Below, piece after piece: positions 23,508 to 30,887 of a DNA stretch of 35,940 nt. Source of the stretch: an uncultured Gammaproteobacteria bacterium (lineage in GTDB: Bacteria > Pseudomonadota > Gammaproteobacteria > GCA-001735895); NCBI GenBank assembly GCA_937894085.1, contig CALCSG010000255.1, positions 1-35,940 on the forward strand, in the 5' to 3' direction. Under the pieces are notes generated by a model that did no database searches, had not been told where the DNA came from, and saw only the letters and a program-made list of their open reading frames with translations. The translations under genes were made by a program, and so were the position numbers. The first letter of the stretch is position 1; the number at the start of each line of letters is the position of its first letter.

Positions 23508-23541
23508 AAAGGCAATGAATTAATCAACATTCATTGCCTTT
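23508..23541 (+). terminator. Rho-independent terminator
   Basis: AAAGGCAATGAAT (23508-23520) pairs perfectly with ATTCATTGCCTTT (23529-23541), loop TAATCAAC, followed by ATTTTA. A weaker hairpin (TTAACCTGAA...TTCAGGTTAA) lies just upstream at about 23468-23495. Confidence 0.8.
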
Positions 23542-23719: not shown

Positions 23720-24382
23720 TTATATAGATACGGCTAACTGTTCGGGTTCTGCAATTATTTTTTTAATAGCCTTATTATCTGGCGCAGGATCAATTGCCAA
23801 ATTACACCATGTAGTCGATATCAATTCATCGTATAACTCCGGGAGTGGTTTGTTGATAAGGCCATCCAGTCGGAACTGTATCATTCTTATCGCTCCACCA
23901 TAAATCACCGCAGAAGCTATCATGCAATCAGATGCATTAATTTCGCCGTTGTTGATACCAGACTGAATTATTTTTCGCATTTTGACAAAAGGTTCAGCAG
24001 AGCAGATCGGTGAACCATCAGCGATATATTCGGAATGTTTGGAATACAGAACGTAAGAAATTATATTTGGTTGTGTTTCGGTATATTCAAATAATAACTG
24101 AATAATGCGGTTACACTGATTAATCGCGCCATCTACTTCCGTTATTACAGAATCAATAAACTCACTCATTTCATTCAGCAAATGGGAATACAGGGCTTTG
24201 GCTATACCCTCCTTACCACCAAAGTGATTATAGATTGAGCCAATGCTGACATTGGCTGTCTTTTGTACGTCATGAATGGAAACATTGTGAAAACCCCGTG
24301 TAACAAAAAGGTCAAGCGCTGCAGTAAGGATTTTGCAATCTATAGGTTCTGGGCAAGGAGCAGTTTTTGTTAAATATGGCAT
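23720..24382 (-). CDS. TetR-family regulator of the methanethiol/formaldehyde cluster
   Basis: 220 aa from ATG 24382 (MPYLTKTAPCPEPIDCKILT). The longer start at 24454 would place the palindromic operator inside the gene and adds a non-homologous stretch. The N-terminal HTH is clear: ILTAALDLFVTRGFHNVSIHDVQKTANVSIGSIYNHFGGKEGIAKAL. The C-terminal ligand domain has no recognised specificity. It is divergent from mtoX. The 19-nt operator candidate at 24440-24458 lies between them and recurs upstream of the formaldehyde dehydrogenase gene, so this protein is the likely controller of both. The ligand may be methanethiol, formaldehyde or an adduct; that is inference. Confidence 0.88.
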   Translation of the reverse strand: MPYLTKTAPCPEPIDCKILTAALDLFVTRGFHNVSIHDVQKTANVSIGSIYNHFGGKEGIAKALYSHLLNEMSEFIDSVITEVDGAINQCNRIIQLLFEYTETQPNIISYVLYSKHSEYIADGSPICSAEPFVKMRKIIQSGINNGEINASDCMIASAVIYGGAIRMIQFRLDGLINKPLPELYDELISTTWCNLAIDPAPDNKAIKKIIAEPEQLAVSI

Positions 24383-24439
24383 TTCGGCACCGATCAAAGA
24401 CAATAATCGACAATATAACCTAAATTCCAGAAAAAATAC

Positions 24440-24458
24440 ATAATGAACATTCATTCTA
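24440..24458. promoter_or_regulatory. Probable TetR operator, copy 1
   Basis: ATAATGAACATTCATTCTA contains the inverted repeat AATGAA-N2-TTCATT and is identical over 19 nt to 28860-28878. It lies between tetR and mtoX, about nine bases upstream of the mtoX -35 candidate. Confidence 0.7.
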
Positions 24459-24532: not shown

Positions 24533-25930
24533 ATGAACACAAAAATAATTAAACGTTTTAAACCTGCTGTTGTGATTGCGCTCACCGCAATAACCATGCT
24601 TGGCGGAATTAACCAGGCACAGGCGGATGAAACCTGTCAGTCACCCTACATGGCTAAAATCACCGGTCAGGAAGATTTCGTGTATGTGTGGACATTGGGC
24701 GTAGAAGGCATGGGCGATGGTCAGGATAAACTGGTTACCGTTGATACCAACCCGAAATCCAGTCAGTACGGAAAAGTTATTAATACCTTATCGGTGGGCG
24801 GCAGAAATGAGGCTCATCATTCGGGGTTTACGGATGATCGTAAATTTTTATGGGCGGGAGGTCTGGATACCAACAAGATCTTTGTTTTTGATGTTCATAC
24901 AGATCCTGCAAAACCGACCCTGTCAAACGTCATCACAGATTTTGTTTCAGCCAGTGGTGGAGTTGTAGGTCCGCATACAACCTATGCCTTACCAGGCCGT
25001 ATGATGATCACCGGGTTATCCAATAATAAAGATCATGGCGGTAGGACAGCCCTGGTTGAATACAGCAATGAAGGGAAACATATCGTAACTCACTGGATGC
25101 CGACAGATGAAAAACTGGGCGGTGCGGATAAGGCTGGTAAATTTGCCGATGGCTACAATTACGATGTCCGTGTGCTACCCCGTCGTAATTTGATGCTGAC
25201 GTCTTCTTTCACAGGCTGGTCTAATTACATGATGGATTTTGGTAAAATGCTGAATGATAAGGAAGCCATGAAACGTTTTGGTAATACTGTTGTAGCATGG
25301 AATCTACATACCAAAAAACCAATGAAGGTACTGGATGTTCCTGGTGCGCCTCTGGAGATTCGCTGTGCCTGGAAATCTGAAAATAACTGGTGTGTCACTA
25401 CTACGGCACTGACTTCTAAAATCTGGCTTATCTATGAAGATGACAAAGGTGAATGGCAGTCAAAAGCAGTAGCCGATATTGGTGATCCTTCAAAAATTCC
25501 ATTACCGGTAGATATTTCCATTGCTTCTGATGACAGTGGTCTGTGGGTAAATACTTTTATGGATGGTAAGACTCGCTATTTCGATATGAGCGATCCCTTT
25601 AACCCAAAGCAGACCTATGAAAAAGTGATCGGTAAACAGGTCAATATGGCATCTTCAAGCTGGGACGGGACACGGGTTTATTATACCAGTTCTCTTTTAG
25701 CTAACTGGGATAAGAAGGGTTCTGACGATGAGCAGTATCTGAAGGCATTTTCTTGGAATGGAGACAAGCTGGTAGAAAATTTTTCAATCGATTTCTATAA
25801 GGCTAAATTAGGTCGTGCACACCAGATGCGCTTTGGAGCCTATTCTCTATACAACAAGTTCTCAAAGCTTGAATCCATTGATGATAGCAGTAAGCAGATA
25901 GCTCAATTAACGGGTGAACTCGTTAACTAA
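24533..25930 (+). CDS. mtoX: Methanethiol oxidase (SBP56 family)
   Basis: 465 aa with a cleavable signal peptide (to about residue 32, NQAQADETC), so periplasmic. The whole length matches the selenium-binding-protein-56 family: YVWTLGVEGMGDGQDKLVTV, GGRNEAHHSGFTDDRKFLWAGG, VGPHTTYALPGRM and the C-terminal GRAHQMRFGAYSL block. Periplasmic SBP56 proteins of this kind are copper-dependent methanethiol oxidases (Hyphomicrobium MtoX), which convert methanethiol plus O2 to formaldehyde, H2S and H2O2. The downstream SCO1 and MauG-type genes are the partners described for mtoX loci, and formaldehyde-oxidising genes follow. This context makes the methanethiol oxidase call much stronger than sequence family alone. 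Confidence 0.92.
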   Translation: MNTKIIKRFKPAVVIALTAITMLGGINQAQADETCQSPYMAKITGQEDFVYVWTLGVEGMGDGQDKLVTVDTNPKSSQYGKVINTLSVGGRNEAHHSGFTDDRKFLWAGGLDTNKIFVFDVHTDPAKPTLSNVITDFVSASGGVVGPHTTYALPGRMMITGLSNNKDHGGRTALVEYSNEGKHIVTHWMPTDEKLGGADKAGKFADGYNYDVRVLPRRNLMLTSSFTGWSNYMMDFGKMLNDKEAMKRFGNTVVAWNLHTKKPMKVLDVPGAPLEIRCAWKSENNWCVTTTALTSKIWLIYEDDKGEWQSKAVADIGDPSKIPLPVDISIASDDSGLWVNTFMDGKTRYFDMSDPFNPKQTYEKVIGKQVNMASSSWDGTRVYYTSSLLANWDKKGSDDEQYLKAFSWNGDKLVENFSIDFYKAKLGRAHQMRFGAYSLYNKFSKLESIDDSSKQIAQLTGELVN

Positions 25931-26016: not shown

Positions 26017-26174
26017 AGTCTACGCAACATCTTGATGTACCTGATAAAAACCAAAAACACGCTCTTTACCAATTAGGTATTTTCGGTGTTTTTGATTTCA
26101 TCATGCACATCAATCTGTCACGCATCTGTTTCGCGCTCAAATGTGTTTTACAGGTTTTAAATGGAGATAATTAA

Positions 26175-28151
26175 TTGAAATTGTTAAGTTTATTTCTAAA
26201 AGTGATTGCTGGAGTCACTTTTACCTCACAACTGGCGGCGTTTCAGGCTCTGCCACAGCAACAGGAAAGCTTCGAGTTGGCACCGGGATATGGCAAATTA
26301 GCTTACCCTTTACCCGCTAAAGGCAGTTACCAGTTACCTCCATTGGGAAAAGCTTTAGACGGGAAAATCCTGGATGAACAGGGCAATAGCGGGACTTTAT
26401 ATGATATTTTCGCAGGAAAATATGTTTTGCTTAGCTTTATATACAGTAACTGCAGCGACATCAACGGCTGCCCACTGGCTTCAAATGTCAGTTATAAACT
26501 GAAAAGTGCCATGCAAAAAGACTCACTGCTGGCCGATAATTTACGCCTGGTCAGCCTGAGTTTTGATCCTGACAGGGATAAACCGGAAGTCATGCGACTG
26601 TACGGTGAAAATTTCAAATATGCCGGTAACAAAGGCGAGTGGAAATTTCTGACCACTGATTCAATGCAACAGTTAAGCCCCATTCTGCAAGCCTATAATC
26701 AGGATATACAACGGGAAAAAAGTGTTAACGGGGACCAGAGTGAAAATATCTCTCATATACTCCGGGTCTTTTTAATAGACCCGGATTACAACATAAGAAA
26801 TATTTACAGCGTAGGATTTTTGCATGCTGATCTGGTAAAAAATGATGTTAAAACTTTGCTATTAAACTCGATCCCCGGCACAACAAAAATTGTGAACCAG
26901 TCAAACGTGGTTAGCCTGCTGACCAGGCCGGGTGATAATAAGGAGGGGTACGATACGCTAAATTATACTACACACAGTAACGCCCTGACCGAACGAGAAG
27001 GAAAAGGCAAACCGGCTGATTTGTTATCGATTGCACGCAATCCTCCTTTAGGTTTGCCAGCGTTACCGGCACAACTATTAGCCGGCTTAAGCGCAGAAAA
27101 AATAGCCCTCGGACGTAAACTGTTTTTCGATAGACGACTGTCATTAAATGATACTTTTTCCTGCGCCATGTGCCATGTGCCGGAACAGGGATTTACCAGT
27201 AACGAAGTTTCCATGGCGGTGGGCATAGAAGGTCGCAGTGTTCGGCGCAATTCACCTACTATCTTTAATGTCGCCTACGCTACCCGCCTGTTTCACGATG
27301 GCAGGGAATATTCCCTCGAGCAGCAGGCATGGGGCCCACTATTGGCGAAAAATGAAATGGGTAATCCGTCAATTGGATATGTGATAGAAAAAATAAACAA
27401 TATTGACGGTTATAGAGAGCTATTTGAACAGGCTTTCAATGGTAAAGGGGTCAATATGATGACTGTAGGGGAGGCAATCGCCAGTTACCAGCGCACACTG
27501 ATTTCAGCGGATTCGAATTTTGATCGCTGGTTTTACGCTAAACAGCAGAACGCACTGAGTATAAGTGCTCAGGATGGGTTTGCCTTATTCACGGGCAAGG
27601 CTAAATGCGCCACCTGTCATACGGTAGGTAACGATGTTGCCCTGTTTACCGATAATAAAATGCACAATACCGGCATTGGCTACAACAACTCAATGGGTAT
27701 AAAACCGGACAAGGAACGGGTGGTGCTAGCACCGGGCGTTTTTATCGAGGTTGACCGGGAAATTATCGATGCTGTCGGAGCGAAAAGCCCGGCTGACCTT
27801 GGTTTGTATGAAATAACTGAAAACCCGCATGATCGCTGGAAATACAAAACTCCCACCCTGCGCAACATCAGTTTAACGGCGCCCTATATGCATAATGGTT
27901 CGATAGGGTCGTTAAAAGAAGTTGTAGATTTTTATAATAAGGGTGGTATTCACAATGAAGTGCTGGATCCGTTAATTCAACCGCTAAACTTAACAGACAA
28001 AGAAGTGAAAAACCTGGTTGAATTTTTGCAATCACTTACTGGTAGTAATGTGGATACCCTGGTAGCCGATGCATTTTCGGCTCCGGTGGGAGACCTTACC
28101 CACTCTGACCCTAATTGGGCTAATAGCGGGGGATTCAGTAATGAGGATTAA
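26175..28151 (+). CDS. SCO1-MauG fusion, probable MtoX maturation protein
   Basis: 658 aa with a TTG start (26175) supported by GGAG eight bases upstream. A signal peptide covers residues 1-22. Residues about 45-235 are an SCO1/SenC copper-chaperone domain; the copper cysteines are C93 and C99 (YSNCSDINGCP), spaced CX5C instead of the usual CX3C, with the conserved histidine near 194. Residues about 285-640 are a di-haem cytochrome c peroxidase/MauG domain with haem motifs C330AMCH and C478ATCH. In known mtoX clusters SCO1 and MauG are separate genes thought to mature MtoX (copper insertion and post-translational oxidation). Here they are one polypeptide. The gene overlaps the next SCO1 gene by 11 bases. 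Confidence 0.88.
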   Translation: MKLLSLFLKVIAGVTFTSQLAAFQALPQQQESFELAPGYGKLAYPLPAKGSYQLPPLGKALDGKILDEQGNSGTLYDIFAGKYVLLSFIYSNCSDINGCPLASNVSYKLKSAMQKDSLLADNLRLVSLSFDPDRDKPEVMRLYGENFKYAGNKGEWKFLTTDSMQQLSPILQAYNQDIQREKSVNGDQSENISHILRVFLIDPDYNIRNIYSVGFLHADLVKNDVKTLLLNSIPGTTKIVNQSNVVSLLTRPGDNKEGYDTLNYTTHSNALTEREGKGKPADLLSIARNPPLGLPALPAQLLAGLSAEKIALGRKLFFDRRLSLNDTFSCAMCHVPEQGFTSNEVSMAVGIEGRSVRRNSPTIFNVAYATRLFHDGREYSLEQQAWGPLLAKNEMGNPSIGYVIEKINNIDGYRELFEQAFNGKGVNMMTVGEAIASYQRTLISADSNFDRWFYAKQQNALSISAQDGFALFTGKAKCATCHTVGNDVALFTDNKMHNTGIGYNNSMGIKPDKERVVLAPGVFIEVDREIIDAVGAKSPADLGLYEITENPHDRWKYKTPTLRNISLTAPYMHNGSIGSLKEVVDFYNKGGIHNEVLDPLIQPLNLTDKEVKNLVEFLQSLTGSNVDTLVADAFSAPVGDLTHSDPNWANSGGFSNED

Positions 28152-28740
28152 AAAATTTGGCTCTTCCTCTAATTGGGTAGTTACTATCTGCCTGCTGATA
28201 ACAGCATTTAGTACAGTATCTTTAGCTCAGTATAATCCTGCAAAACCACCTGGAATGGGTGGGGATTTTGAACTGACAGACCATAATGGTGAGCTTTTCA
28301 AGCTGCAGGATGAAAGGGGTAAACTGGTGTTAATGTTTTTTGGCTACACATCCTGTCCCGATGTCTGTCCCATGGAATTATCATCGTTATCACATCTTCT
28401 GGATTTATTAGGAACTAATGCCAGTAAGGTTAGGACATTATTCATTTCTGTTGACCCTGAAAGGGATACTCCTGAAGTGCTAAAGCGATATGTTTCCTAT
28501 TTTAATCCTCAGTTACTGGGATTGACCGGTACAGCAAAACAGCTTGCAGAAGTGACTCTTCAATATCATGCACAAAACAGTGTCAATGCCAATACTAAAA
28601 AGATAAAAAACTATACAGTAAATCATTCGGCAAATTTATATGTGGTCAATGGTGAGGGAAGGTTGATTAATATTATACCTTTCGGAATACCCATGGAGCA
28701 TATTTACCAGATGATTAATTTCGAATTAATGCGTCTATGA
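28141..28740 (+). CDS. SCO1/SenC-type copper chaperone
   Basis: 199 aa from ATG 28141, inside the last codons of the fusion gene, so translationally coupled. N-terminal anchor or signal at residues 12-30. The thioredoxin-like fold has the canonical CX3C copper site (C72-PDV-C76) in FFGYTSCPDVCPMEL, SVDPERDTPEVLKRYVSYF and a conserved histidine in NYTVNHSANLYVV. It gives the cluster two SCO domains, one canonical and one with a CX5C variant. Confidence 0.9.
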   Translation: MRIKKFGSSSNWVVTICLLITAFSTVSLAQYNPAKPPGMGGDFELTDHNGELFKLQDERGKLVLMFFGYTSCPDVCPMELSSLSHLLDLLGTNASKVRTLFISVDPERDTPEVLKRYVSYFNPQLLGLTGTAKQLAEVTLQYHAQNSVNANTKKIKNYTVNHSANLYVVNGEGRLINIIPFGIPMEHIYQMINFELMRL

Positions 28741-28858: not shown

Positions 28859-28864
28859 TATAAT
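28859..28864 (+). promoter_or_regulatory. Consensus -10 box of the formaldehyde dehydrogenase gene
   Basis: A perfect TATAAT lies 56 bases before the ATG at 28921; the -35 is weak (TTTCAT at 28836-28841). The operator candidate overlaps this box, which predicts repression by steric block. Confidence 0.6.
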
Positions 28865-28878
28865 GAACATTCATTCTA
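28860..28878. promoter_or_regulatory. Probable TetR operator, copy 2
   Basis: The same 19-nt sequence as at 24440-24458 (ATAATGAACATTCATTCTA), here overlapping the -10 box. Confidence 0.7.
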
Positions 28879-28920: not shown

Positions 28921-30030
28921 ATGAAATGTAAAGCAGCTGTAGCCTGGGAACCAAAAAAGCCACTGGTCATTGAAGAAGTTGAAGTCATGGGGCCAAAAGA
29001 AGGCGAAGTACTGATAAAAGTAATTGCTTCAGGTGTTTGTCATACCGATGCTTTTACCCTGTCCGGTGATGATCCTGAAGGTTCTTTTCCCTGTATTTTA
29101 GGCCATGAAGGTGGCTGCGAAGTGGTTGAACTAGGCACCGGCGTTAAAGATTTAAAAGTAGGCGATCATGTGATCCCCCTTTATATAGCAGAATGTGGAG
29201 ATTGCGAATACTGTAATTCTACCAAATCCAATCTTTGTCAAACCATTGCTCCTACAATCTGGACGGGTTATATGCCAGATGGAACCAGACGCTTCTCTAA
29301 AGGTGGCAAGGATATATTCCATTATATGGGCTGCTCTACATTTTCTGAGTACACGGTTGTTCCGGAAATTGCGCTGGCAAAAATCAATAAGGCTGCACCA
29401 CTTGATAAAGCCTGTTTGCTGGGTTGTGGTGTGACAACCGGCATCGGTGCTGTATTAAATACGGCCAAGGTCGAGGCTGGTTCAACGGTCGCCGTGTTTG
29501 GCCTGGGTGGTATCGGTTTATCCTGCATTCAGGGAGCGGTGATGGCGGGTGCCAAACGCATTATTGGTATAGATATTAATCCGGATAAATTTGAGTTTGC
29601 CAGACAGTTAGGTGCCACCGATTTTGTTAACCCGAAAGATCTTGAAGGTAATTTCGTTGAATACATGCAGGATACCTTTGATGGCGGTCCGGATTATTCG
29701 TTCGAATGTATCGGTAATACGCATGTCATGCGTGATGCACTCGAATGTACTCATATGGGTTGGGGTGTTTCAACGGTAATCGGTGTAGCCGGTGCAGGGC
29801 AGACTATACAGACACGTCCTTTTAATCTGGTGGTGGGCCGTACCTGGAAAGGATCTGCTTTTGGCGGCGTTAAAGGAAGAACTGAATTACCGGGTTATGT
29901 CGACCGTTATATGAATGGAGAAATTGAGCTGGATAGCCTGGTGACTCATACCATGCCACTGGAAGATATCAACCGTGCCTTTGATTTGATGCATTCCGGT
30001 GAAAGTATACGCTCCGTGATTATTTTCTAA
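28921..30030 (+). CDS. frmA: S-(hydroxymethyl)glutathione dehydrogenase, class III alcohol dehydrogenase
   Basis: 369 aa, the full family length. Catalytic zinc ligands are visible ([16 protein letters not shown] ... LGHEGGCEV), as is the four-cysteine structural zinc lobe ([15 protein letters not shown]). The NAD-binding motif is [15 protein letters not shown]. The class III signature [15 protein letters not shown] and [13 protein letters not shown] are present. It oxidises the spontaneous formaldehyde-glutathione adduct to S-formylglutathione. GGGGAT lies before the ATG. Together with the next gene it removes the formaldehyde produced by MtoX. Also known as adhC. Confidence 0.96.
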
Positions 30031-30050: not shown

Positions 30051-30887
30051 ATGAAACAAATTGAATCTGTAAAAGAGTCTGGTGGATACCTTAATCGCTA
30101 CCAGCATCACTCCACTAGCTGTAATTGTGAAATGACATTTTCGGTATATTTGCCACCTGCTGCAGAAACTCAAAAAGTGCCTGCCGTGTACTGGCTGTCA
30201 GGTTTGACCTGTACTGATGATAATGTGCGTACCAAAGCTGGTGCACAACGCTATGCGGCTGAACTGGGTCTGGCATTGATTATGCCGGATACCAGTCCGC
30301 GGGGCGATGATGTTGCTGATAAAGAGAGTCGTTATGATCTGGGTAAAGGTGCGGGTTTTTATGTAAATTCTACACAGGCTCCCTGGGCGCATAATTATCA
30401 GATGTATAATTATGTCACTGCTGAATTACCGGATCTTATTGAAAAAGAACTACCGCTAATTCCTGGAATAAAATCGATAACCGGTCATTCCATGGGCGGT
30501 CACGGTGCACTTATCTGCGCTCTTAAGGAAGCAGGGGCTTACAGATCAGTTTCTGCCTTTTCTCCGATCAATCACCCCAGCGTGTGTGAATGGGGGCAGG
30601 GTTGTTTCAGTGCCTACCTGGGCAGCAATAAAGAAGACTGGAAAGCATATGACGCGACCGAGCTGGTGCTTGCCGGAGCAGATAAAATTGAGCTTTTTAT
30701 AGACCATGGTACAGCTGATGAATTTCTACAGGATCAGCTTTATCCGCAAGATATGATTGCTGCCTGTAAAAAAATGGATTTCCCGCTCAACCTTAGAATG
30801 CAGGATGGTTACGATCACAGTTACCACTTCATCTCGACATTTATTGGTGAGCATTTGCGATACCACGCGGATAAACTGTTCGAATAA
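30051..30887 (+). CDS. fghA: S-formylglutathione hydrolase
   Basis: 278 aa, esterase-D/FrmB family. The nucleophile elbow GHSMGGHGAL, the Asp of the triad in FIDHGTADEFL and the catalytic His in GYDHSYHFIS are present. FSVYLPPAAETQKVPAVYWLSGLTCTDDN is the usual N-terminal block. It releases formate and glutathione from S-formylglutathione. It begins 20 bases after the dehydrogenase stop and is followed by a strong terminator. Confidence 0.96.
   Translation: MKQIESVKESGGYLNRYQHHSTSCNCEMTFSVYLPPAAETQKVPAVYWLSGLTCTDDNVRTKAGAQRYAAELGLALIMPDTSPRGDDVADKESRYDLGKGAGFYVNSTQAPWAHNYQMYNYVTAELPDLIEKELPLIPGIKSITGHSMGGHGALICALKEAGAYRSVSAFSPINHPSVCEWGQGCFSAYLGSNKEDWKAYDATELVLAGADKIELFIDHGTADEFLQDQLYPQDMIAACKKMDFPLNLRMQDGYDHSYHFISTFIGEHLRYHADKLFE

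Follow-up and report, generated by a model that had tools for sequence, protein, structure and literature searches.

A CX5C-type SCO domain tied to methanethiol oxidase and its fusion to a MauG/MbnH-like two-haem domain

The step catalysed by methanethiol oxidase (MtoX) is a key one in marine sulfur cycling. Genes for SCO1/senC and mauG adjoin mtoX in many bacteria, and in Methylophaga thiooxydans the two are fused (Eyice 2017, PMC5739008). Both Methylophaga mto clusters carry mtoX, a SCO1/MauG fusion, and a SCO1/SenC/PrrC-like gene, and the fusion, which is induced by dimethylsulfide along with MtoX, was proposed to process periplasmic MtoX (2019, PMC6548844). In Hyphomicrobium VS and Ruegeria pomeroyi the same partners lie beside mtoX as separate SCO1/senC and mauG genes, giving two proteins rather than one. 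Since the fusion is on record in both papers, its domain architecture is not new; it is already known and common. The term CX5C does not occur in PMC5739008, and the cysteine spacing of the M. thiooxydans fusion is not discussed in the passages of the two papers considered here.

The window analysed here is a 35,940-nt stretch, contig C255 of a 6.0-Mb draft gammaproteobacterial genome. It contains a tetR-family regulator gene (positions 23720 to 24454, minus strand; PF00440) that is divergent from mtoX (24533 to 25930). Downstream of mtoX on the plus strand follow a gene for a 658-aa SCO-MauG fusion (26175 to 28151), a canonical SCO gene (28141 to 28740), frmA, encoding S-(hydroxymethyl)glutathione dehydrogenase (28921 to 30030; TIGR02818, 631 bits), and fghA, encoding S-formylglutathione hydrolase (30051 to 30887; TIGR02821, 393 bits). 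The encoded MtoX, of the SBP56 family, scored 784 bits against the NCBIfam MtoX equivalog model NF052453, above the cut-off of 650, and has the conserved residues His95, His96, His148, His430, Trp229, and Trp392. The order of mtoX, fusion, and second SCO/PrrC-like gene, the order of domains within the fusion, and the predicted periplasmic location are all as in the M. thiooxydans clusters; the downstream genes differ, with persulfide dioxygenase and sqrB taking the place of frmA-fghA in M. thiooxydans.

The fusion has a TTG start preceded by GGAG at 26162 to 26165, and an aligned Leu suggests that the fusion of a same-genus relative (L043) shares this start. The initial annotation described the next gene as overlapping the fusion. 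An overlap is present and most likely spans 11 nt, given that ATG 28141, which has G-rich DNA immediately 5' of it, is the probable start codon of the second SCO. The longest-ORF start at 28069, which we rejected as less likely, gives 83 nt and overstates the overlap. In another relative (L041), the SCO frame begins 4 nt past the end of the fusion.

That an SCO1 and a two-haem MauG domain are joined in one 658-aa protein, as the initial annotation had noted, is borne out by the open reading frame and by Pfam matches to SCO1-SenC (residues 68 to 205, 54 bits) and CCP_MauG (residues 308 to 456, 183 bits), behind an N-terminal hydrophobic helix that resembles a signal peptide and is predicted to be of the Sec type. 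The SCO domain (26376 to 26789) scored 54.2 bits with PF02630 against a cut-off of 22.8, was modelled with pLDDT of about 77 to 98 (mostly above 90), and matched solved SCO proteins in Foldseek with TM scores of 0.67 to 0.82 by target length. Its cysteines lie in the CX5C motif C93-S-D-I-N-G-C99, followed by P100 (26451 to 26471), and the following SCO gene (PF02630, 153 bits) has the CX3C motif CPDVC (28354 to 28368), both as first described. The SCO distal copper-ligand position is retained as His194 (26754 to 26756), which is kept in 79/79 fused and 15/15 unfused aligned proteins with a letter in that column. The fusion's SCO domain thus passes for an SCO1/SenC family member by Pfam, fold, and distal His, and departs from it in the CX3C copper motif. 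Compared with the copper chaperones ScoI and human SCO1/SCO2, which are also the closest solved proteins to the canonical SCO of the window, it shares the fold and the distal His but differs in having CX5C instead of CX3C and in being fused to a haem domain.

To sample mtoX loci, we searched 369 genomes belonging to the class, 398 from the phylum, and one named genome collection, and read the genes adjoining each locus. All 97 distinct complete mtoX-linked SCO domains, fused or separate, had CX5C, and the other SCO domains in the same data whose motif could be read, 87 in number, all had CX3C. The count of 97 was made without pre-selection by motif, whereas the residue-conservation counts (His194 and others) took only SCO domains fitting CX5C. 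The usual form was C-x-D-x-x-G-C-P, with a single Glu at the third position (L118). Unfused mtoX-linked SCOs that we inspected, three of them from outside the class, were also CX5C. Entries without a listed motif included, among the blanks inspected by eye, TlpA-like proteins, truncated frames, and SCOs in which CX3C precedes a residue other than P, S, or A (such as CPDICL, CVSVCT, and CPTVCN). Because the motif is kept in every complete relative found, it reflects neither chance nor assembly error. Judged by these alignments, the CX5C SCO is a family signature strictly tied to MtoX and not a quirk of the window gene. What is new here is this previously unrecognized CX5C SCO subfamily, which sharpens the maturation hypothesis.

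When the SCO domain alone was used as the query against the 369 genomes of the class, 36 matched, including all 32 with an above-cut-off (full-length) MtoX. Of the four others, three hold MtoX fragments (G121, G174, and G351) and one a remote homologue (G311). Among the 369 genomes searched, none without any MtoX match had an SCO match; one genome (G241) has an MtoX fragment, located at the end of a contig, and lacks an SCO match. A fusion match elsewhere was found in all twelve genomes in which mtoX lies alone on its contig stretch: eight of these matches were uninterrupted, with 55 to 63% identity, one was split in two (G749), and three contained internal stop codons. These last comprised one TAA each in G750 (L259) and G752 (L258) and one TGA plus one TAA in G756 (L257), and the three copies are possibly defective or misassembled. 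As a rule, neither partner adjoins an SBP56 protein that scores below the MtoX cut-off; the exception is a remote homologue (L073), whose neighbouring SCO has CX3C. The case for a dedicated role of the CX5C SCO rests most strongly on this near-perfect co-occurrence, which also lends good support to a part in MtoX maturation, as implied by the initial annotation.

The haem domain (residues 308 to 622, 27096 to 28040; PF03150, 183 bits) contains two haem-binding motifs, CAMCH (residues 330 to 334, 27162 to 27176) and CATCH (residues 478 to 482, 27606 to 27620), in which Cys and His are invariant. Where MauG and MbnH have a Tyr haem ligand and classical cytochrome c peroxidases (CCP) have Met, the domain has Tyr587 (27933 to 27935); all 75 fused and all 13 unfused proteins have Tyr in this column. 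With two CXXCH motifs and Tyr replacing the Met ligand, the domain is MauG/MbnH-like. It falls short of the equivalog cut-offs both for MbnH (TIGR04039, 244 bits versus 363), its highest-scoring model, and for MauG proper, the enzyme of TTQ synthesis (TIGR03791, 222 bits versus 444). Among solved structures, MbnH (PDB 6e1c), a MauG-like protein with a link to copper homeostasis, was closest in both sequence and fold, with 30 to 31% identity by fold; the two share the Tyr ligand position and the copper-linked context, but MbnH has no SCO domain and its partner is not MtoX.

A search of 299 genomes gave no MauG above the cut-off, and below-cut-off MauG-like proteins were therefore taken as the outgroup in an alignment restricted to full-length rows. 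From spacing and this outgroup, Gln384, Pro388, and Glu394 appear to be the MauG distal-pocket positions. The place of the inter-haem Trp (Trp93 in MauG) is occupied by His374 (27294 to 27296), a column that is His in 72/75 fusions and Trp in the MauG-like outgroup and CCP, so that the domain lacks this feature of MauG proper. The inter-haem Trp is reportedly needed in MauG. BthA, which has Ser at this place, still reaches the bis-Fe(IV) state (PMC6405878), and loss of the Trp therefore does not exclude high-valent chemistry.

According to the initial annotation, the fusion implies physical coupling of copper insertion and MauG-type oxidation. The phylogeny weakens this claim. On a tree of 96 haem domains, built by a quick method with no bootstrap, the fused and unfused forms are intermixed; well-supported branches require at least four changes, and parsimony about 8 to 11. 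The parts therefore work in trans too, and the fusion is a sign of their joint action rather than of a required physical linkage. The linker of the fusion (residues 236 to 290, 26880 to 27044) is predicted to be disordered, with pLDDT of 47 to 69 over most of its length, and includes a conserved PGDxKxGYxxxxYxTxSxALxxRxG segment. In unfused MauG partners, the core of this segment, GDxKxGYxxxxYxTxS, is likewise N-terminal, ahead of the haem domain. Since it is predicted to be disordered and is common to the unfused proteins, this segment may serve in docking. Four loci (L049, L060, L065, and L069) carry a second, stand-alone MauG-type gene in addition to the fusion, often followed by a TlpA-like gene.

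Among 72 operons with enough sequence to show what directly follows the fusion, 24 have a CX3C SCO at that place, 6 a TlpA-like protein, and 42 neither, which makes the second SCO optional at the locus. The suggestion that the different cysteine spacings reflect a division of labour between two SCOs accordingly holds in part: CX5C is constant in the MtoX-linked SCO, but a division of labour is not a general feature and may apply in lineages that have the second SCO.

We consider it probable that the fusion is a periplasmic maturation factor dedicated to MtoX, combining copper insertion with haem-driven oxidation. The CX5C SCO domain would take up copper through Cys93, Cys99, and His194 and load the histidine copper site of MtoX (His95, His96, His148, and His430; these four proposed ligands are conserved not only in MtoX but also across other SBP56 proteins). 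The two-haem domain, of MauG/MbnH type and driven by peroxide, would then oxidize aromatic residues of MtoX, of which Trp229 and Trp392 correspond to the published candidates for a Trp-derived (TTQ) cofactor. Where a CX3C SCO follows, it would most likely keep the CX5C cysteines reduced or hand copper on. The analysis itself shows anatomy, conservation, and co-occurrence, from which copper binding and transfer, MtoX modification, and the sequence of steps are inferred. Taken singly, copper delivery by the CX5C site seems to us about as likely as not, and Trp oxidation by the haem domain somewhat less probable than that. Beyond the co-occurrence with MtoX, the maturation role is favoured by the fixed CX5C, by the retention of His194, both CXXCH motifs, the Tyr ligand, and the distal-pocket positions, by 6e1c as the best solved match, by the co-induction on dimethylsulfide, and by the presence of copper in native Hyphomicrobium MTO (PMC5739008). 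The poor performance of MtoX made in E. coli points the same way. Full activity of MtoX without the fusion, which the initial annotation had named as evidence to the contrary, is not what published data describe: when produced by itself in E. coli, the Ruegeria enzyme consumed 77 µM methanethiol, with 0.3 mg/ml enzyme over 30 min, and no H2O2 was detectable (PMC10936201). By our calculation these figures correspond to a rate of about 9 nmol per min per mg; Hyphomicrobium MTO purified from its native source reached 12.9 µmol per min per mg (PMC5739008). The difference is roughly 1000-fold, by our own estimate and between different species and assays. Such slow turnover fits an immature enzyme. 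Against maturation stand the human SELENBP1 and worm SBP56 relatives, which are active with copper alone when made in E. coli (PMC10362175), so that the SBP56 fold as such needs no MauG, as well as the replacement of the inter-haem Trp by His and a Trp conservation that matches the presence of MauG imperfectly. SBP56 proteins lacking MauG likewise keep Trp392 (17/19), and the alignment of Trp229 between MtoX and other SBP56 is ambiguous; Trp conservation thus neither proves nor excludes TTQ. We had regarded the Trp229 column as MtoX-specific, with Pro in 17/19 other SBP56 proteins, and dropped this reading on finding that alignment with 2ECE puts a Trp two residues earlier in those other proteins.

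The CX5C SCO might instead be a thiol-disulfide oxidoreductase that reduces or isomerizes MtoX Cys35, Cys278, and Cys287, with copper handled by the CX3C SCO or by MtoX itself. These three cysteines are near-invariant in MtoX (96 to 99%) and nearly absent from other SBP56 proteins, Cys28 is required for activity of the Ruegeria MtoX (PMC10936201), and some SCO proteins are thiol reductases (Sco2; PMC6696091). The CX5C spacing is also unlike the copper-binding CysXXXCysXnHis motif, and TlpA-like thiol proteins follow the fusion in the 6 operons counted above. We nevertheless think this explanation unlikely, as the distal His194 is invariant though a plain thiol reductase would not need it, and the 42 operons with neither an adjoining CX3C SCO nor TlpA would have no local copper-loading agent. 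It is more doubtful still that the haem domain acts as a peroxidase removing H2O2 made by MtoX and not as a modifier of MtoX. MtoX does make H2O2 (PMC5739008), and cytochrome c peroxidases belong to the same fold family; the classical-peroxidase Met ligand, however, is Tyr throughout the fused and unfused proteins, MbnH and MauG are the top-scoring family models, and peroxide removal hardly explains a fusion to SCO. An extended form of the maturation reading, which we regard as speculative and rather improbable, is that the CX5C SCOs are a separate copper-delivery subfamily evolved for the histidine copper site of MtoX and not for CuA, and that their haem partner reaches high-valent states although it lacks the inter-haem Trp; copper insertion and MtoX cofactor synthesis would then be a single coupled step.

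Maturation by these partners offers a possible explanation for the slow turnover and missing H2O2 of MtoX made alone in E. coli. The strict signature of a CX5C SCO and a Tyr-ligated MauG-like partner, tied to MtoX, shows which genes to co-express for mature enzyme.

An operator-like near-palindrome, AATGAACATTCATT, lies at tetR/mtoX (24442 to 24455). Its exact sequence occurs only twice in the 6.0-Mb genome, the other match lying before frmA (28862 to 28875). Exact or near copies were present beside mtoX in 8/8 relatives examined. These putative sites, together with the copies listed next, point to a single TetR regulon serving both methanethiol and formaldehyde oxidation. A copy with one mismatch is found at 23522 to 23535, on the other side of tetR. 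Two further one-mismatch copies lie on another contig of the genome (G000:C316:14112 and 14190; L283), upstream of a gene of the GFA family (glutathione-dependent formaldehyde-activating enzyme) that is located near NuoE/NuoF-like genes resembling formate dehydrogenase subunits.
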